Made by a program: the position numbers and the translations under genes. 64,000 bases of DNA, taken from Calliopum simillimum. Lineage: Eukaryota > Arthropoda > Insecta > Diptera > Lauxaniidae. The stretch covers positions 112,553,309-112,617,308 of the forward strand of contig OX638368.1 of NCBI GenBank assembly GCA_951812925.1. The letters are read 5' to 3'. Positions 5,051-59,560 of this stretch are shown one piece after another (position 1 is the first letter of the stretch; each line of letters starts with the position of its first letter). Under the pieces are notes generated by a model. That model did not search any database, was not told where the DNA came from, and saw nothing but the letters and a program-made list of their open reading frames with translations.

Positions 5051-6002
5051 GTGAGTGTCAAAAGTGAAAAAAAAAAGAAAAATATTTAACGTCGGCGCAT
5101 TTGTTAGAAAGAAATTCAAAAATATTTCACAAAAACAAAAAAAAGCCCCCTAAGAATTTATATTTTTTTCATATATAAAAAAAAACAAGACAAAACACGT
5201 ATTTTTCTTAAAAAAAAAAAAAAAGTTCAAAGCTTTTCGCTTTATGTTTAATTCGTGATTTTAGTGTAAAACACGCCATAAAAAATAACAAAAAAAAATA
5301 CATTTCATCGATAAAAAAAACCACTGCAACAGCACCATAACCATATTGAACTCATAAATCATAACTTTGACAATTTTTGTAGAACAAAATGCAAGAACCG
5401 CAGCAGTCTAAGCAACAGCTGCACTTGTGCAAATTAAAGCCTGCAAGTGATAAAATCATAAATCTTTATTTTCACGTTGCAAAAATGTTGCTAGCGACAT
5501 GTGCGCATGCGCACCGCAGTGTTGAGTTGTTGCGTATTCAGCATTAAAAATTAGTATTAGCTTTGAAAACCGTAAGATTTCCTGTGATTAAGACATTATA
5601 ATAGCAAAGTGTCTAAATTACAAGTAGAAGTTGGCCATACTGGTGGCGATTCTTTTACAGCAGAGGCAGCATTTCAATACAAGTTTTAATGCATAATGGC
5701 AAGTTGCAAGACTTGCATAACACGTTATTTGATTAAAATAGAGATATAATTATTTATAGAAAAAAATATGTAATGACCAATTTCTTATAGTAAAATATTT
5801 AAATTATTTAAAAAAAAAAAAAAAAAAAAACACAAATTTTTAATTTGGTATGATTAATTCGCGTTACCGAGAAATAAAAATCAAATCTGGAGTACTATTC
5901 GATGAATTTTATATTAAAAAATATAAATTAAATAAAAATTCAAAATATATTTAAAGAGTTTAGTTCTCTTTTACATCGAACAAAAATTTTTTATTTATTA
6001 TT

Positions 6003-6043
6003 GCAAAACGCGTTTCGAACGTCATGCGTTCATCATCAGTTGC
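6003..6043 (-). ncRNA. Hammerhead ribozyme-like motif in Penelope arm (minus copy)
   Basis: Exact inverted copy of the motif at 7199-7239, lying about 210 bp downstream of the stop codon of the minus-strand endonuclease frame. Same core, stems and palindromic stem III. Confidence 0.63.
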
Positions 6044-6253
6044 TACACAAAAACTAAAAATTTGAAAATATTGTAACAAAACAAAGAGCAATAAATATTA
6101 ACATATTTTGTCATTTCATACATATAAATATTTAAGTATAAGAGAATTTAAAAATACAATTGTAAAGAACGAAAACGATCAAAATGTGGAGAGCCAAAAA
6201 CTGCAACATGCATAGAAAGTAGAGAGCAAAAAAGGTTTTTCATAATAATTAAG

Positions 6254-6922
6254 TTATTTATGTTTTAATAAATAAAACAAAGATGATGGATTGTTGCCGA
6301 TATTCCTGTTCATTGTTTTTTGTCCAGAATGAATATGTAGAGATTCTAAAATATTTAAGCGATGATAATTAGATTCTGTTTCAATTAATTTAAAGCAATT
6401 GGCATCTACGTTATGGTCATGTTTGACAATATGCTCGACTAAACCACTCTTTAATACATCGCGGTCTCTCACGTCTCTTAGATGTTCATCTCTTCTTAGT
6501 TTAAAAGCTCTTTTTGTTTGGCCGTAATAAACAAATGGACATTTCTTCTTTGCACATTTTGCCATATAAATGCCTGGTCGTTGATCATTATTTATTGGAT
6601 CTTTTGTAGAGCATAATAATGATTTCAATTTGTTATTACTTCGTGGTACCAAATTTACGTCATGATTTGCCAAACAGTTTGATAAAGGTCCAAATACATT
6701 GCGATCATAAGTACATCCAAATCTGTTTGAAGTGTTCTTCGCTTTCTGAGACGAAACAAACGTTGAACAATTCATTTTTAATTTTTTATATTGGTGTTTT
6801 CTAATGAGTAAGTCAATGTTTTGTTGTGTGTAACCATTTATTCGTGCCATTTCATATATTGTGTTTCGTTCTTTAATAAAATTTTGGTGGCTTAATGGCA
6901 AAGTGCACATACGGTGTATCAT
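6254..6922 (-). pseudogene. Penelope-like element ORF, C-terminal GIY-YIG endonuclease part
   Basis: 222 residues, against roughly 800 or more in intact elements, so the reverse transcriptase part is lost. The GIY-YIG signature is visible as GIYMAKC (117-123) and VYYGQTKR (131-138), with basic residues and H147 following. The family's end motif is ESNYHRLNILESLHI (183-197), with the probable catalytic Glu at 193. C123 and C128, with nearby histidines, fit the zinc-finger insertion typical of Penelope endonucleases. In Penelope elements this nuclease nicks the target for reverse transcription. The ATG at the 5' end is probably internal to the original ORF. The frame is intact in the remaining part, suggesting fairly recent insertion. 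Confidence 0.82.
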
Positions 6923-7198
6923 AGAATTAAAAGAAGGAATATCGGCAACAATCCATCATCTTTGTTTTATTTATTAAAACATAAATAACTTAATTATTAT
7001 GAAAATCCTTTTTTGCTCTCTACTTTCTATGCATGTTGCAGTTTTTGGCTCTCCACATTTTGATCGTTTTCGTTCTTTACAATTGTATTTTTAAATTCTC
7101 TTATACTTAAATATTTATATGTATGAAATGACAAAATATGTTAATATTTATTGCTCTTTGTTTTGTTACAATATTTTCAAATTTTTAGTTTTTGTGTA

Positions 7199-7239
7199 GC
7201 AACTGATGATGAACGCATGACGTTCGAAACGCGTTTTGC
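7199..7239 (+). ncRNA. Hammerhead ribozyme-like motif in Penelope arm (+ copy)
   Basis: Order: GCAA, CTGATGA (7203-7209), T, hairpin GAACG-CATGA-CGTTC, GAA (7226-7228), palindrome ACGCGT, T, TTGC (7236-7239). GCAA pairs with TTGC as stem I. The conserved core and a self-complementary stem III fit the minimal type I hammerheads described in Penelope-like elements. The unpaired T after the core and the GUU cleavage triplet are less ideal. Confidence 0.65.
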
Positions 7240-8353
7240 AATAATAAATAAAAAATTTTTGTTCGATGTAAAAGAGAACTAAACTCTTTAAATATATTTT
7301 GAATTTTTATTTAATTTATATTTTTTAATAACAAATTTTTAAGTTTCTGCCTTAAGTCTTTCGTTTATAAATACAAAATTTCTCTGCTGAGGCAGGTGAA
7401 AATGCAATTTTTTGCTTTACTTTAAAGAAATCATGAAAATTGTAGACATGTAAATTAAGCACTAAGCAATATTAAAAAAAAAATGTCCAATAGGGACGGG
7501 TATGGTAAACCGGAGCACATTCGAATCCAAAAGTTTAAATATAATCGATATCAATTAACATATTGCTTTTTGAAAATAACTAGGTAAGCTACGTCTTCTA
7601 ACTATAAAAAACTTAAAGCTGTGAATCTTTTCTTTCAATTTAAGTCAAAAAATGTTCGAAATATTTAAGCCTATTGAAAAATTTATTAATTTTCTGAAGA
7701 AGATCATTTATTTTCAATGCGAGTTTGCAATGTATACCTAAGAAATAATGTGTTGCATACCTTTAGGGTTAAACAGTTAAAGTTCATTTCTTTATGCGAG
7801 GTGGGCGTGTTAATCACACAGATTTTTCGAATAGTTCTCAACTAGCTATAACAAATCAAGATGCGAAATTTTATTGTTATGACAGCAGTCCTACTATTTT
7901 TTTGTTCCAAAATATTTATGTAGCCATAACACTGTGTGGCGGTCGTTTGTCGGTTATTGGCATATAACTTCGACTTAAGGAAAGGTCAAATCGCAAGTTC
8001 ACATTGTTAATTGTCGTAAGACGCATAGGTGCCACAAGAGAAATCCCTTTTAATAATGGTGATTTTTTCTTAAGTGTCTGGAAAAAGAAAAAAACAGCAG
8101 CTGTCAAAATATATCCGTACTCTACGGTAAATCCTTTAAAAATACTTGGTCGTAAAATTTTAAGAACTCGTCAAACTTTAACTTTGTATTATATTGCTTT
8201 TTGCAGCTTTCAATCTACTCCAGCATATTATTTCTGCAACATTTTTATATAATTTAAGGACATTTTAACAAAAATGGTTTATGGTCGCCTCAAAATAGTA
8301 AAAAATTGTTGCAAGTATGCCTATACTAATAAGGAACTAACATAAAAATTATG

Positions 8354-33007: not shown

Positions 33008-33756
33008 CCTGCAGGACCACGGTCTCTTCCAAAACTAGTTTGCAAACTTCTCCAAGGGAGAAACTTAACTTATTGTCTCCTTATGCATTAGAATCGGAAC
33101 AGAAAAAGGACAATTGGCGCCTTATGAATCACAACAGAACCAGAAAAAGGACAATTTTTTTTTTTATTATCTTTATAAATTTCAAATAGTTTAATTCGAA
33201 ATTCAAACTTTACACAAAAATGTCGAATGTGCTAAAGTTGTTTGTTCTGAGCAATGTGTTCCGGGTTCGAATCTCAGTGTGGATGAAATTTTTTTTATTA
33301 ATTTTATATTATTTTATACCTCGGTTGGACAAATGTTTCATTTTCTACTCCGAATACTCTTCAGGAAAATTGTTTATTTAAAAATTGGAATTGAGAATCA
33401 CAGAGTGGAGGATTTGAACCTGGGCCTCTCCACGCAGCACAAGTCATTAGACCGATACACTATCGTTTGCTCTTGTTCACAGTCGACGTACTGCCAAACA
33501 GTACGTAGTCAGTAACGTTATAATTTCACTGACACAATTGGACCACTTTTGGTACTAATGACGGATTATTCATTACATTCGAACCATTTTTGATACAAAT
33601 GACCGACTTTGCATTACATTTGGACCATTTTTGTCACAATTGATAATTTAAGTGAATATATTCTAGTTTTAGGTGTAGTTCGTATTGGTCTACTTACAAA
33701 ATAACCAGACCTAAAATTTTATTATTGTGACAAAAGTCTCCGCCGGTCCTACAGGG
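33008..33756 (+). mobile_element. tRNA-like family copy 2 (CCTGCAGGACC...GGTCCTACAGG ends)
   Basis: About 750 bp. Starts CCTGCAGGACCACGG and ends CCGCCGGTCCTACAGG, so short inverted ends. It contains a forward tRNA-like T arm (GTTCCGGGTTCGAATCTC, about 33258-33275) and a reverse one (GGATTTGAACCTGGGCCTCT, about 33410). The second half has three diverged units built on TGGACCATTTTTG. No ORF with coding character. Confidence 0.7.
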
Positions 33757-41438: not shown

Positions 41439-41627
41439 TTATCAATTGTATCAAAAATGTTCCAAATGTAATGCAAAGTCGGTCAATTGTATCAAAAATG
41501 GCCCATGTAATGCTTAATCCGTCATTAGTACCAAAAGTGGTTCAATGGTGTGTCGAATCTTTCAGTGAAATTATTGTAACGTTACTGACTATTTACTGTT
41601 TGACAATTCGTCGATTGTGAAGAAGAG

Positions 41628-41702
41628 CAAACGGTAGTGTATCGGCCTAGTGACTTGCGCTGCGTGGAGAGGCCCGGGTTCAAATCCTCGTCTCGCTGAT
41701 TT
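41628..41702 (+). other. tRNA-like promoter region in repeat copy 3
   Basis: AACGGTAGTGTATCGG resembles an A box and GGGTTCAAATCC is a B box at normal tRNA spacing. Stems are imperfect, so it is a tRNA-derived pol III promoter rather than a tRNA gene. Confidence 0.5.
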
Positions 41703-42013
41703 TCAATTCCAATTTTTAAATTTCTATTAATTTGTAATCAATTTGTCTGAAGAGTTTTCGGAGCAGAAAATAAAACATATGTCCAACATAGCCGAGGCAT
41801 AATATAATAAAAAATTAATAAAATAATGTTCATCCACACTGAGATTCGAACCCGGAACACATTGCTCAGAAATATATAACGAACTCTTTAGCACATTCGT
41901 CTATTAAAAGGTTTTTGTGTAAAATTTGTTTTTTTATTAAATTCTTTGAAATTTATAAATAAAAAAAAAAATGGCCTTTTTCTGTTCCGAATGTAATGCA
42001 TAAGGAGACAATT

Positions 42014-42270
42014 GAGGAGTGGCCGTACCAAAGGGCCTAAGTACCATTTCGAGGCAAAAGTAGTGTCATAATATGAAACGGGTGGCATTTTGCTAGAAAT
42101 TAATTAAATTGTTTTCTGTTTTCACTAAAAATTTTCTTGATAGCGTGAAATTGATGTCATTATATTGAAAAAATTATAACAATCAAATAACAGACTATTA
42201 GGCACATAAAAAGTATGACATTACTTTTGCCTCGAAATGGTACTTAGGCCCTTTGGTACGGCCACTCCTC
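42014..42270. mobile_element. MITE copy 2 (GAGGAGTGGCCGTACC ends)
   Basis: 257 bp. Terminal repeats of about 48 bp with few mismatches. AATT on both sides (42010-42013, 42271-42274). About 90% like the copy at 27336-27575 by eye. The open frame at 42244-42783 on minus overlaps its end and is not a gene. Confidence 0.82.
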
Positions 42271-50390: not shown

Positions 50391-51347
50391 CTTGCAGGAC
50401 TACGGACTATTCCAAAACTAGTTTGCAAACTACTACATGGGAGAAACCGACAAGTCAAAATTCTGGATTCATCACATTATTATTTATATTTGAATGTATT
50501 TAAGCTAGTATCAATACCCTGCAGAACCACGAACTATTCCAAAACTTATTTGCAAACTACTCTATGAAAGAAACCGAATAGTCCAAATTCTAGTCCCATT
50601 ACATATAAAATTCTATTTACGTTTTACATTGTTTGTCATTGGGCGTAACCAATTGTCTCCTTACGCATTACATTCGGATCAGAAAAAGGCCAATTGTCTC
50701 CTTATTCATAACATTCGGACCATTAAAGGGCCAATTTTTTATTTTATTTAGAAATTTAATATACAAATTTTACACAAAAACGTCAAAAGGTTTCATAGAC
50801 GAATGTGCTAATGAGTTTGCTATATATTTCGGAGCATTGTTTCCGGGTTGGAATCTCGGTGTGGATGCATTTTTTTTATTAATTTATTTATTATGTTGCT
50901 ATGTTGTTTCATTTTCTGCTCCGAAGACTCTTCAGACAAATTGTGTTCAAATTAATAGAAATTTAAAAATTGGAATTGAAAAACACCGAGTGGAGGATCT
51001 GAACCTGGGCCTCTCCATGCAGCACAAGTCATTAGACCGATACACTATTGTTTGCTCTTACTCACAGTCGAAGTACTGCCAAACAGTATGTAGTCAGTAA
51101 CTTTATAATTTCACTGACAAAATCTATACACAATTGGACCATTTTTGGTATTAATGACGAATTATGCATTACATACGGACCATTTTTGATACAAATTACT
51201 GACTTTGCATTACATTTGGACCATTTTTGGTACAATTGATAATTTAAGTGAATTTATTCTAGTTTGAGTTGTAGTCCATTATGGACTATATAACAAAAAA
51301 CCGAAGATGGGACTATTGAGACAATTGTCTCCGCCGGTTCTACAGGG
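50391..51347 (+). mobile_element. tRNA-like family copy 4
   Basis: Starts CTTGCAGGACTACGG, restarts CCCTGCAGAACCACG at about 50517, and ends CCGCCGGTTCTACAGGG. Contains the opposed tRNA-like arms (GTTTCCGGGTTGGAATCTC, about 50838; GGATCTGAACCTGGGCCTCT, about 50995) and the GGACCATTTTTG units. It ends about 360 bp before exon B. Confidence 0.65.
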
Positions 51348-54900: not shown

Positions 54901-54971
54901 CTAATGGCATGTTTTTTTCTATGCCTTAAATGTTGATGATTATTAATTCGCTCTTTATCTCGGTGTTTCAG
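51963..54971 (+). other. Second visible intron
   Basis: GTAAGG at 51963 to TTTCAG at 54971. It holds GGCACCGCCCAC-type repeat fragments (53050-53190), the piggyBac-like MITE (53201-53705) and CAG/CAA simple repeats near 54.2-54.7 kb. No coding exon seen. Confidence 0.8.
53201..53705. mobile_element. 505-bp piggyBac-like MITE with TTAA flanks
   Basis: Ends CCCTTTCAACAC and GTGTTGAAAGGG lie directly between TTAA at 53197-53200 and 53706-53709, the target duplication of piggyBac elements, whose ends also start CCC. The interior repeats the palindromic GGGACATATGTGTCCC motif five or six times in variants. No transposase. Confidence 0.8.
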
Positions 54972-55903
54972 ATGCCATTCATATGATTTTGGTGATACTG
55001 GTGACATGGTTTGCCGCCTTTCACATCATAGCCGTGCCACACTTTCTGATGTACAGGATCCCTATTTGGAAGTACCCGAAGCAGCCACCTACGAACTCTC
55101 TTCATGTTATAATGTAACGATTGAATGTGGCGCTGGCGATATGATTGCACGCATACGCACCTCTAAGCTTTTTGATGGTAAAGTCTATGCCAAGGGTGCT
55201 CCCAAGAAATGCGCCTTTGATGTTAAGAGCTCACTGGAATTCGAGCTACGCATGGGTTATCAGGATCTCGAATGTAATGTGCGCCAAAGCGGTTCAGGTC
55301 GTTATATGAATGATGTCGTTATTCAGCATCACGATACCATAGTTACATCATCTGATTTGGGTCTGGCTGTAACGTGTCAATATGATTTAACCAATAAGTC
55401 TGTTTCAAATGAAGTTGACCTTGGTGTTAAGGGTGACATTGAACCAGCGCTATCCGAAGAGGTTATTGTCGATTCACCAAATGTCATTATGAAGATTACC
55501 TCACGTGATGGTTCTGATGTTATGCGCTCCGCTGAGGTCGGTGATCCCTTGGCATTGAAATTCGAAATACTCGATGAACAAAGTCCCTATGAGATTTTCG
55601 TGCGCGAACTTGTTGCCATGGACGGTACCGATAATGCAGAGATTACGCTAATCGACTCAAACGGTTGTCCCACAGATCACTTTATTATGGGTGCCATCTA
55701 TAAGAGTTCATTGTCGGGTAAGATACTGTTGTCACACTTCGATGCATTCAAGTTCCCATCGTCAGAGGTTGTACAATTCCGTGCTTTGGTTACACCATGT
55801 ATGCCATCATGTGAACCAGTGCAGTGTGATCAAGAGGATATGAGTGGAGAGCTGAAATCATTGTTATCGTATGGACGAAGGAGAAGGTCGCTGAATGCAA
55901 CAG
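54972..55903 (+). CDS. PAN-ZP protein, coding exon C (end of PAN 2, whole ZP domain, furin site)
   Basis: This is the longest exon (932 bases), with acceptor GTTTCAG and donor GTGAGT at 55904. The first residues (RCHSYDFG, then MVCRLSHHS) complete the second PAN module. The ZP domain runs from about residue 197 to 440 of the visible protein, with cysteines near 197, 204, 232, 253, 287, 384, 428, 432 and 437. Its typical end is VQFRALVTPCMPSCEPVQC. NVT (199), NKS (293) and NAT (460) are candidate N-glycosylation sites. GRRRRSL (453-459) follows the domain as a furin-type site, where ZP proteins are normally released for polymerisation. GC content and codon use stand out from the AT-rich surroundings. 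Confidence 0.95.
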
Positions 55904-57485
55904 GTGAGTTGGAACAAAGTTAACAACAACAACAAACAAAAAAGAAACAACATATATAGTTGTTGTTGTTGTGCAGAATTGACGGCGCAATGGTTAAGTG
56001 AATCGGACGACAACTCTATTTGCGCAAGTTACAAATGGTGACAGACTGTTAGGGCCAAACGGAAAACAGGGTGTATGTGTAAAAGAGAATATTTTGCATA
56101 TAAAATTGTTCTCAAAGAATGAGGATAAAAATATTATAAAAAATTATGCCTATGGCATGATAAGTCTTGAATACAGAGCTTAAGCCGATTTAAGAAAAAT
56201 AGAGTTTTTTTACGATTTTGTAGGGTCTATTTAGATATTACTCGTAATAATGTTCAAAAACGAAAGATTAATTCCGACCCTTTTTGCAACAGATCTACGA
56301 ATCTTAAACTGAAATGTTCCAAAATCCAAATAAAAAGTTTTTTATAATTGCACATACTATAGAGTAAACGATTATGTGAAGAGATGACCTTTGAGCATTA
56401 GATTGAGATATCTCTGCTCGGATGTTAGTTAGGTCTATGCGTCTGGGGGATTTTTGTTCATTTTGAGATAATCTTTAGTAATTTGAAAATCGATAAATGG
56501 CTGCTTCTAAAAAATTTAATAGCGCACACTTACATTTGAATATTTATTAAAACTAGAATCGCCCAATGGTCAAAATTTGACCACAGATACATTTAATAAT
56601 TTTTTTACTTTTTGGACAGTTTTGGTACTTTTTTGACAGTTTTAGTACTTTTTATGCTATTTAGTGTAAAATAGGAAAGCTGTGTGACCGCGTATTTTGT
56701 CGTTGTTAATATTGTAAAATTTGCATTTAATTTTAACTGGCTTAATGGCAAAATCTTGAAATAATTTTATTTTTGTGCACATTTACACACAAAAACCTTC
56801 CTAATTGTTTATAATTTAAGGACGTGCTCCATTTCTAACATAGCAAAATAGGTAGGACAAATATTTGTCCTGAATATTAATATATAGATTTAACTTTATG
56901 CACATCTTCAAGCAAATACCTTTCTAATGGTGTATAATTTAAAGTCGTACTTCATTTCTAACATAGTAAAAAGAGATGGACAAGTTTTTGTCCGGCGTAT
57001 TAATATATAGATATGAGAACAGAAGCAATAAATATATAAAAAATTAGTCACATCACTTAAACTTTTTGGCACAAATAGATGAGATTTTGTACCAAGGGTT
57101 TTGGGAATGGGTAAAACATATTGTGACTAGGCTAGTTACTTATGAAATTTAAATGATATGATATCGCCGAACTTATAGCCACAAACTCAAACTTTAGATT
57201 CTCTTCAAATCACCCTGTGAGTAAAAAAATAACTTCAATTGAAAGAACTTTACTGAACTTCATGGTCATGCTTAACTAATTTCTGTGTCTTGATATTTTT
57301 GTCTCGACAGTAATGATGACGTTTATTTTGTAACTTCATATGCCACGAAAGCAGCAATAGAGTACTAGCACACGACCTAAAGCGTCATTAAAGCGCTGCT
57401 GTGCGATTCCTTATCCAAGCAACAGAAAGCAAAAACTAGCTCTACTACCCAGGTTCTAAAAAAACCCTTTCTTTTATTTTTATAG
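55904..57485 (+). other. Third visible intron
   Basis: GTGAGT at 55904 to TTTATAG at 57485. It holds the dispersed repeat at 56555-57012 and a short CAACAACAACAAACA run. No exon seen. Confidence 0.82.
56555..57012 (-). repeat. Dispersed repeat copy, inverse of 182-566
   Basis: Shares AGAATCGCCCAATGGTC, TTTGTGCACATTTACAC, ATTATACACCATTAGAAAGG (minus) and related blocks with 182-566. A unit of about 125 bp with AATCTATATATTAATA is present twice here and once in the other copy. Confidence 0.65.
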
Positions 57486-57707: not shown

Positions 57708-58666
57708 GTAAGTTCTTGTTGTTGTCTATCCTCGTATATGTGGAGTAAATGCTGCATGGGTATATTACAGCATGGGTGCAGTGCAGCGCGGTAGCATAAA
57801 ACAAACGCAGGGGTCTTGAGCATTTTTTCATTGAATTTTTTTTTTTTTTGTTTCTTAAGGTGTGCAACCAGGCGTTAAGAACTGACGTAATTGTTTTCAG
57901 TTATTATTTAAGCCTTTATATTAGATTTGAGATAAACATTTTCTTTCAAATAACGAATATAAAAAAAAAGCCTCATGTGCCGAAATGGTGAATGTACTAC
58001 CTACTACTACATGGGTTGGCTTGAAAGATGAAAAGAATGTAATGCAATTTATAATAATAACTAAAAAAAACCATGAAGAGAAAGTAAATTTTTTTAAGGC
58101 ATTCATGATTATAGTTCACAAAATTACTATTATTGTTGTGTAGTAGACAAATTGACTAATATGGATGATACTCTGTGTAGAAAGTGATAAATCGTGTATT
58201 CAAATTGTAGTGAAAAAAATGCCGAAAGTGAGTTATGTTGCGCAAAACTAAAACGTGCCTTACTTTAGGCAAAATTGAAATTAATGCATTGTAGTTTTAG
58301 TATAATGAAATAAAAAAAACAACAATAAATAATTTTTAATATTCAATAATTGGGAGATAACCCTTTTGCATTTGGTGCATTAGCTTCGAAAGCTATGACA
58401 GAAGAGTGGAAATGAAATCAGATCAAAAAAACCTTGGAATTTCTTTCAAAAATGAACACAAAACGGTCATATTATACACTTCAGCTCTATTGATAAGTAT
58501 GTAATTTTTTCAGTCGCTGGGTCGTTTTTCAAGGTTATTTTTAATTGATTTTTTTTATTGAACTTTTAGTCATATATTTGCAAAGATCGATTTACATATA
58601 AATCTATCAATGCATTTTTCTAACACATAATTATGACAAATCAAGGAACGGATTAAAAACACGGCT

Positions 58667-58713
58667 ATAGTGACATATGTTTCGTCTTTCGCCACAAAGA
58701 CTCATCAGACTAT
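58667..58713 (-). ncRNA. Hammerhead ribozyme, type I, palindromic stem III
   Basis: Minus strand: stem I ATAGT (58713-58709), core CTGATGA (58708-58702), stem II GTCTTT-GTGGCG-AAAGAC (58701-58684), GAA (58683-58681), stem III ACATATGT (58680-58673), cut-site C (58672), stem I ACTAT (58671-58667). All conserved core bases are present. Stems I and II pair without mismatch, and the cleavage triplet is GUC. The self-complementary stem III resembles the minimal hammerheads of retrozymes and Penelope elements, thought to act as dimers. Confidence 0.87.
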
Positions 58714-58792
58714 TTTTGTTGTAATTATAATTATATTTATTTTACTAAATTAATTATAATTGAAAAATTGCAAGTTTGAAAACTTTTTGTGT

Positions 58793-58875
58793 TTTTGGTC
58801 TGGGCGGGAGTCGAACCAAGGATCTCCAGGTTGGTAGCAGAAGTCGTTACCACTGCACCAACCTTGCCCGGCTGC
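58793..58875 (-). other. tRNA-like pol III promoter of the ribozyme element
   Basis: The minus strand carries an A box (TGGTGCAGTGGTAACG) and a perfect B box GGTTCGACTCC (58807-58817) at tRNA-like spacing. Acceptor and T stems do not pair well, so it is tRNA-derived rather than a tRNA gene. It would drive transcription towards the ribozyme. Confidence 0.7.
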
Positions 58876-59279
58876 GAAGCCGACTTTTGCCAGTTTTGTT
58901 TGTGTGTTAATACGTATTGATATATCATAATTGTTGTTTGTGTTATTTATTGATATTTGGTATAGTTGTTCCTTTGGAACAAAATTCAATACCGATTGCA
59001 GGTGTTTCCACCTTATCAGGGCGTGTTCTCACAAATAACTTCTTTAAGAATTTTTAAGTGTGTTACTTAATGACATTTTATATATTGAAAATTGATTTCT
59101 TTATTGAACTTTTAGTCATATATTTGCAAAGATCGATTTACATATAAATCAATCAATGCATTTTTCTAACACATAATTATGACAAATCAAGGAACGGATT
59201 TAATCCGTTTAATCAATGTATAGTATGTAACGATTTCAAACCTTCAAAAATATGAATGACATCTTTCCATGATTCCACT

Positions 59280-59560
59280 CAAAAATAAACCCAAAAAAAG
59301 CATCCAATAAAAAACATCCAAATATAAAAACATTCAAATAAAAACATCCAAAAAAAACATCCAATGAAAAACATCCAAAAATAAAAACATCCAATGAAAA
59401 ACATCCAAAAATAAAAACATCCAAAAATAAAAACATTGGATGCTATTTTTGGATGTTTTTATTAAAGATGTTTTTCATGGGATGTTTTTATGTTTGGATG
59501 TTTTTCATTGGATGTTTTTTTTTGGACATTTTTCATTGGATGTTTTTTTTTTTTTTTTTG
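59280..59560. repeat. Palindromic minisatellite, relative of 25735-26420
   Basis: AAAAACATCCAAAAATAA and ATGAAAAACATCC units turn at about 59440 into the inverse TTTTTGGATGTTT units. The right edge continues TTTTTTGATATTTTTGATAA, as at 26405-26430, so both arrays share a boundary. Confidence 0.8.

Follow-up and report, generated by a model that had tools for sequence, protein, structure and literature searches.

The window, by which we mean the whole 64,000-nucleotide stretch of Calliopum simillimum DNA that was analysed, carries a retrozyme copy on its minus strand. A previous reading of the letters alone (the sequence-only reading) had interpreted this copy as a tRNA-promoter element with a complete hammerhead ribozyme, arranged as about 1.2 tandem units. 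Its features, in window coordinates, are as follows.

58543-59203, minus: retrozyme copy, 1.21 units of 546 nt (unit BLAST and direct repeat)
59096-59203, minus: first repeated stretch, 5′ partial, 97% identical to 58550-58657 at a spacing of 546
58550-58657, minus: second repeated stretch, partner of 59096-59203
58797-58872, minus: tRNA-like stretch with A and B boxes, read from the letters
58850-58860, minus: A box TGGTGCAGTGG, read from the letters by its consensus
58807-58817, minus: B box GGTTCGACTCC, read in the same way
58763-58782, minus: T4 (58782-58779) and T5 (58767-58763) runs between the B box and the ribozyme, at which Pol III might stop
58667-58713, minus: hammerhead with complete core (pattern, pairing by letters and conservation)
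58713-58709 and 58671-58667, minus: strands of hammerhead stem I, AUAGU/ACUAU, fully paired
58708-58702, minus: CTGATGA of the hammerhead, read from the letters
58672, minus: end of the GTC, with the predicted cut at 58672/58671, read from the letters

The 546-nt period and the arrangement in about 1.2 tandem units, as originally proposed, are borne out by this mapping. The 113-bp repeat of the sequence-only reading belongs to the unit, which speaks against a target duplication of an unrelated element. When mapped to the unit, the 3′ end of the copy (58543) lies at position 128, in the short of the two end zones described below, and its 5′ end (59203) at position 15. The retrozyme consensus has a GC content of 0.32, i.e. 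below 50%, its longest ATG frame is 63 aa and it contains no reverse transcriptase or endonuclease ORF. Since an ORF with a telomerase-like reverse transcriptase and a GIY-YIG endonuclease is absent, the retrozyme is not itself a Penelope-like element (PLE). No match to the element was found in the phage collection.

A short palindrome, AACGGATT / AATCCGTT, is located at the 5′ junction of the copy (59190-59215) and is possibly the trace of a second, tiny arm. Just past the 5′ end lies a large inverted array of AAACATCC-type repeats (59281-59548), the arms of which reach 67-77 nt and are 70-90% complementary. The only host-gene-like ORF among those examined (54940-55923) carries domains of the cuticlin / vitelline-envelope type (PF25057, PF25272).

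The sequence CTGANGAG..CGAAAC..GTC, which we take to be the hammerhead pattern, was found a single time in the window, at 58672-58708 on the minus strand, and did not appear in any of 100 dinucleotide shuffles. In addition to stem I, stem II (GUCUUU/AAAGAC) is fully paired in the letters, while stem III is minimal (CAUAUG), so that the core, the two paired stems and the GUC cut site that had been described are all present. A search of the window against Rfam, which had been suggested as a check, gave no match at the gathering score and a sub-threshold hit to Hammerhead_3 at 22.7 bits (cut-off 48.5). The minimum-energy fold of a 68-nt stretch with the hammerhead is not a hammerhead, and its stability is no better than that of shuffles (z +0.52).

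Genomic copies and conservation of the hammerhead

The 690-Mb assembly was searched with 58543-59201 as the query; the best 40 of 1971 candidates were scored and gave 124 pieces, which is a lower bound. From these, 36 further loci with flanks were chosen by best score and combined with the window copy to a set of 37, a choice that is biased to young copies and therefore misses old ones. With unit coordinates counted from the predicted cut, the 37 loci carry about 1.2 to 7.6 units each. The 63 full units are about 535-554 nt long, one unit of 1091 nt having been dropped. The genomic copies of the same period that the sequence-only reading had called for are thus present in large numbers as tandem multimers, in agreement with its view of a mobile hammerhead element of the retrozyme or Sm-alpha sort. 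An old copy (about 88% identity over 320 nt) was also seen at L060 4191-4585, about 800 bases from a PLE copy.

The core and the start of stem I are kept in 59 of the 63 full units. Variants common to at least two loci were found in 0 of 58 hammerhead columns compared with 49 of 486 other columns (Fisher p = 0.003); when single-locus variants are included, 197 of 544 windows of hammerhead size are equally quiet and the hammerhead is unexceptional. It is the pattern, the pairing and the conservation that make the case for a putative ribozyme; in isolation, the stretch shows no energetic preference for the hammerhead. By sequence and pairing, and at a score below the Rfam gathering score, this is a type I hammerhead in a non-coding repeat, a feature by which retrozymes are recognized, and the RNA of the element would presumably cleave itself.

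Within arrays (59 unit pairs from 17 arrays), the median difference between units was 0.18% and 36% of the pairs were identical, compared with 1.47% and 7.6% for pairs with shuffled labels; none of 5000 permutations was as low as the observed value. Unit length is also often constant in arrays, for example five times 548 nt at L009 and six times 545 nt at L011. Three arrays (L019, L037, and L039) are mixed and not homogeneous. The homogeneity of units within arrays that differ from each other supports the earlier proposal of a spread via tandem or circular RNA. Near-identical units within most, mutually different arrays would fit a single RNA circle that is copied again and again; an array that was homogeneous beforehand could give the same homogeneity through its transcript.

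Insertion ends of the retrozyme

The analysis of the outer 3′ ends revealed that 58 of 63 lie in two zones, about 130 and 175 nt beyond the ribozyme cut. Thirty long ends are located at unit positions 160-195 (13 of them exactly at 175) and 28 short ends at 118-146, with 5 at other positions; the zones were defined after inspection of the ends. At 26 of the 37 loci the units form a head-to-head inversion (fold-back) with both 3′ ends pointing outward, and 21 of these 26 fold-backs pair a short with a long end (permutation mean 11.3, p = 5e-5). Five fold-backs break this rule as scored: L023 and L044 combine a long end with an end at unit 106 or 75, L013 adjoins an N run, the right arm of L037 is interrupted and extends past the fetched stretch, and the flanks of L039 are palindromic in themselves. 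The flanks of L030 and L031 are the same, and these two loci may represent one event.

The inner junctions are scattered over unit positions, with an overlap of 1-12 nt in 20 of the 26 fold-backs. Comparison of the two arms in 22 fold-backs showed that 17 pairs are closer than average, the mean distance (0.0243 vs. 0.0233) not being smaller. In 3 of 20 fold-backs the arms disagree at diagnostic sites, and one insertion may therefore use two RNAs. At the 11 loci with a single orientation, the outer 5′ ends range from unit 15 to 445 and do not cluster at the cut. The edge of the window copy about 15 nt past the predicted cut, from which a spread through self-cleaved RNA had been argued, is therefore one of many, and this argument fails.

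Flank strings of at least 9 nt (9-16 nt) are shared at 23 of the 37 retrozyme loci, compared with 9.8% of mismatched pairs, and are thus longer than the >4 bp used as a retrozyme criterion for target duplications. No target repeat of 9 nt was found in the flanks of the other 14 loci, the window copy among them. The insertions lie in AT-rich surroundings, with an A+T content of 0.793 in the 20 nt next to the insertion and of 0.686 at a distance of 100-600 nt (59 of 72 flanks richer). Judged by eye, the retrozyme ends listed show no conspicuous poly(A) or simple-repeat tail. Fixed 3′ ends, the fold-back layout and a link to Penelope-like elements did not figure in the sequence-only reading.

The Penelope-like family of the window and related modules

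The window also contains a copy of a Penelope-like element with a comparable layout:

5843-7337, minus: PLE copy, fold-back with target repeat (arms and target repeat; family RVT_1)
5843-6990, minus: PLE arm with the long end at 5843 (fold-back mapping)
6935-7337, plus: PLE arm with the short end near 7337 (fold-back mapping)
6254-6955, minus: PLE ORF, endonuclease part (ORF list), identical except for a few changes to part of the 557-aa frame at L046
6033-6039, minus: CTGATGA, hammerhead-like motif in the PLE terminal repeat, with a second, inverted copy at 7203-7209, plus

The endonuclease part (6254-6955) gave no Pfam match, and a first protein search with it returned one unnamed relative. 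A longer reading frame of this family, the 557 aa of L046, matched RVT_1 with an E value of 1.3e-11; reverse-transcriptase matches of L046 were weak and below the cut-off in NCBIfam, and weak among solved structures, telomerase included (E 0.31 to 0.38). PF00078 and PF01541, the latter of which we take to be GIY-YIG, occur together in at least 20 of 120 listed relatives of the PLE protein; the nearest named relative among these 120 is from the fly Eurosta solidaginis. This pair of domains defines endonuclease-bearing PLEs, and judging from these matches the family of the window appears to combine a reverse transcriptase with GIY-YIG. For the PLE ORF, the best 150 of 947 genomic candidates were scored, some in frames of >800 codons. 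Head-to-tail endonuclease matches with a regular spacing of about 2.8-2.9 kb were seen at C2:87222737-87229192, C4:43288087-43291588, and C4:9680937-9684446, some of them in frames of 700-800 codons.

To the window copy, 20 further loci of the PLE family were added (21 in total; best 40 of 96 candidates scored). Opposed arms are present at 13 loci, including the window; 12 of these pair an end at q1077-1086 with an end at q1147-1148 (permutation p = 0.0014), and the 13th (L053) runs into N. L051 and L062 show one arm in the locus mapping, and their complementary arm is visible in the genome match table. Target repeats of at least 9 nt are present at 13 of the 21 loci, compared with 7.6% of mismatched pairs. 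The A+T content is 0.745 next to the insertion and 0.678 in the distant control (27 of 41 flanks richer), so that the AT-richness at PLE insertions is less clear than at those of the retrozyme.

A comparison of the 3′ ends of the window PLE and the retrozyme revealed no clear sequence match. The two elements share the end rule, the inversion and the target repeat, but not the 3′ sequence, and the exact partner PLE family can therefore not be named. An AC-rich hairpin common to both elements had been considered as a PLE signal and was rejected, being significant neither between the two start sites of the retrozyme (z -1.14) nor in the PLE tail (z +0.10).

Modules related to the tRNA-like stretch and ribozyme were found in two further families, the first of which has three copies in the window:

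41600-41850, plus: family 2 copy A, an older relative with tRNA-like stretch, T5 run and hammerhead-like motif at 41747
50850-51085, minus: family 2 copy B, motif at 50935
33280-33510, minus: family 2 copy C, motif at 33364

All three align with the focal element in the order tRNA-like stretch, T run and hammerhead-like motif, and inspection by eye shows a two-sided change, from U-A to C-G, at the inner stem II pair. Also by eye, a tRNA-like B box on the opposite strand lies downstream of the hammerhead-like motif in this family (41439-42014, 50691-51242, and 33111-33646).

A third family was identified among 20 PLE 3′ regions. At two of them (L070 and L072), sequence with 80-82% identity to unit 380-539 is followed by short-zone sequence, the hammerhead being damaged, and the module stands in the same order downstream of an endonuclease match. 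A 36-bp minisatellite flanks the module of L070 on both sides (194-343 and 670-815). The third family is large: the best 40 of 1564 candidates were scored, each of them at 95-100%. One new copy, C3:59206109, lies about 275 nt from an endonuclease match, which brings the loci with a related module beside such a match to three. The module might accordingly be the terminal repeat of a PLE, in which case the retrozyme would be a PLE derivative without ORF and not a partner in its own right, as the arrangement at these three loci would suggest. However, 18 of the 20 PLE 3′ regions lack the module, and only 2 of the 40 best third-family copies adjoin a scored endonuclease match (best 150 of 947), so that we regard this derivation as conceivable and lean against it. 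Fifteen of the 20 regions instead match a loosely set hammerhead pattern, of the type usual in PLEs.

Transcription, insertion and relation to known elements

The A box and the B box, which we assigned by consensus, lie on the same strand as the hammerhead (minus, 58860-58850 and 58817-58807), as had been stated. ARAGORN called no tRNA for the tRNA-like stretch 58797-58872. T4 and T5-or-longer runs separate the B box from the ribozyme in 32 of 34 scorable full units, the remainder of the 63 falling outside the strict box or core pattern. Moreover, an A-to-T substitution in the B box is found in 34 of 103 genomic pieces, affecting every scored piece at 12 of the 37 loci, some at 3, and none at 22. 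The boxes of the postulated tRNA-promoter element are thus present, while its promoter role is weakened by these changes and by the T runs, which also lead us to question whether a Pol III transcript would contain the ribozyme. It is accordingly doubtful that the tRNA-like stretch still drives ribozyme transcription. The emphasis of the sequence-only reading on a tRNA-derived SINE, in which a live Pol III promoter produces the ribozyme RNA, agrees with the boxes on the right strand, with the retention of the tRNA-like stretch in the related families and with Sm-alpha, which is described as tRNA-Gln-derived with a hammerhead (PMC2770079). Set against the T runs and the altered B boxes, this now appears unlikely.

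From the insertion signature of the retrozyme we infer a Penelope-like machine, and the element is probably a non-autonomous retrozyme whose RNA circle is inserted by such a machine from two internal start sites. RNA of the ~546-nt non-coding unit would be cut to unit length by its own hammerhead and closed to a circle. The Penelope-like machine would open an AT-rich target on both strands, and reverse transcription would begin inside the RNA about 130 or 175 nt past the ribozyme cut, usually with one site per strand, and go round the circle several times. The two cDNAs would then be joined 5′ to 5′, mostly via short overlaps, so that the resulting array is head-to-head and has a target repeat of about 9-16 nt on either side. 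More tentatively, the array may be born in one step, with a Penelope-like particle, which might be a dimer and carry one or two RNA circles, using the short site on one strand and the long site on the other for several rounds. The one-sided tail would then reflect a built-in strand asymmetry of Penelope insertion, which the retrozyme would obey since its module of ribozyme and start site would be that of a Penelope element, perhaps a terminal repeat without ORF to which a tRNA-like stretch was added.

A PLE-type insertion could also have used the linear multimeric transcript of an existing array, for the copying of which the hammerhead would not be needed. Such a template is suggested by the arrays present genome-wide, by the mixed arrays at L019, L037, and L039 and by ribozyme mutants of an Anolis PLE that still insert in vitro (PMC11167929); it seems rather improbable, given that most arrays are homogeneous while arrays differ, and that the hammerhead columns hold no shared variants. 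Variable 5′ ends and inverted 5′ parts with short overlaps would be in line with a LINE-mobilized SINE that acquires 5′ inversions through twin priming. Twin priming leaves the inverted part with an arbitrary outer end. In the present element this end sits in one of two fixed zones, with the other zone at the other end, and the listed ends have, by eye, no conspicuous poly(A) or simple-repeat tail; twin priming is set aside on account of these zones as very improbable. Spread as a satellite at the DNA level, via unequal exchange or DNA circles and with the ribozyme as a relic, would produce head-to-tail arrays with homogeneous units, but it is disfavored by the target repeats, as well as by the end zones, the pairing of short and long ends and a hammerhead free of shared variants, and is likewise hardly credible.

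Metazoan non-LTR retrozymes have been described with repeats of 150-450 bp and with insects among their hosts (Cervera and de la Pena 2020, PMC7229834). The element analyzed here resembles them in its non-coding, low-GC tandem repeats, type I hammerhead and target duplications (PMC7229834). It differs in the unit of about 535-554 nt, compared with 150-450 bp as a described range and not a definition, and in the tRNA-like stretch, the tRNA passages in the sections of PMC7229834 considered here referring to tRNA ligase and tRNA processing; neither a head-to-head layout nor two 3′ end zones were met in these sections. With Sm-alpha and Sj-alpha of Schistosoma it shares a tRNA-derived stretch combined with a hammerhead and a high copy number (PMC2770079, PMC8490949), a likeness at the level of description, and the member described in PMC8490949 has a unit of 335 bp compared with 546 here. 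Plant LTR retrozymes are similarly non-autonomous and hammerhead-bearing with a circular RNA intermediate, which is presumed for the present element, but are described with type III hammerheads, LTRs, 4-bp duplications and a Gypsy partner (PMC7229834, PMC7761336). We conclude that this is a retrozyme-like element resembling Sm-alpha, and thus of a kind already known, with a larger unit.

The likeness to PLEs concerns the insertion itself. Both strands are cut by a purified PLE protein, which extends them from two adjacent internal start sites; the stretch between these sites corresponds to the 30-40 bp genomic tail, and no strand difference in start-site use was seen (PMC11167929). PLE insertions are described as head-to-head with a tail at one end, which is called optional, and with target site duplications of 8-10 bp (PMC3846280). 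The retrozyme shares with PLEs the head-to-head inverted ends, the tail at one end, the short target duplications, the AT-rich targets and a hammerhead upstream of the start sites (PMC11167929, PMC3846280), and its layout fits the published layout of PLE start sites; unlike PLEs, it has no reverse transcriptase or endonuclease ORF. The zones are about 45 nt apart in the retrozyme and 68 nt in the PLE family of the window, compared with the published tails of 30-40 bp. Among the titles and abstract openings listed from the open-access literature, subscription journals lying mostly outside, we found no retrozyme report of such end zones or of a PLE-type insertion. What we would call new is the pairing of a short with a long end in nearly every fold-back, for the retrozyme and the PLE alike.

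Animal retrozymes occur as abundant small RNA circles, and the enzyme that returns them to the genome was an open question. PLEs have been named as a strong candidate partner without demonstration (PMC7229834), and animal retrozyme repeats are described as having no conserved motif that would reveal the partner (PMC7761336). With two end zones, a tail on one side and the corresponding pattern in a PLE of this window, the question of the retrozyme partner becomes directly testable; these observations also suggest one start site per strand as a rule for PLE insertion.
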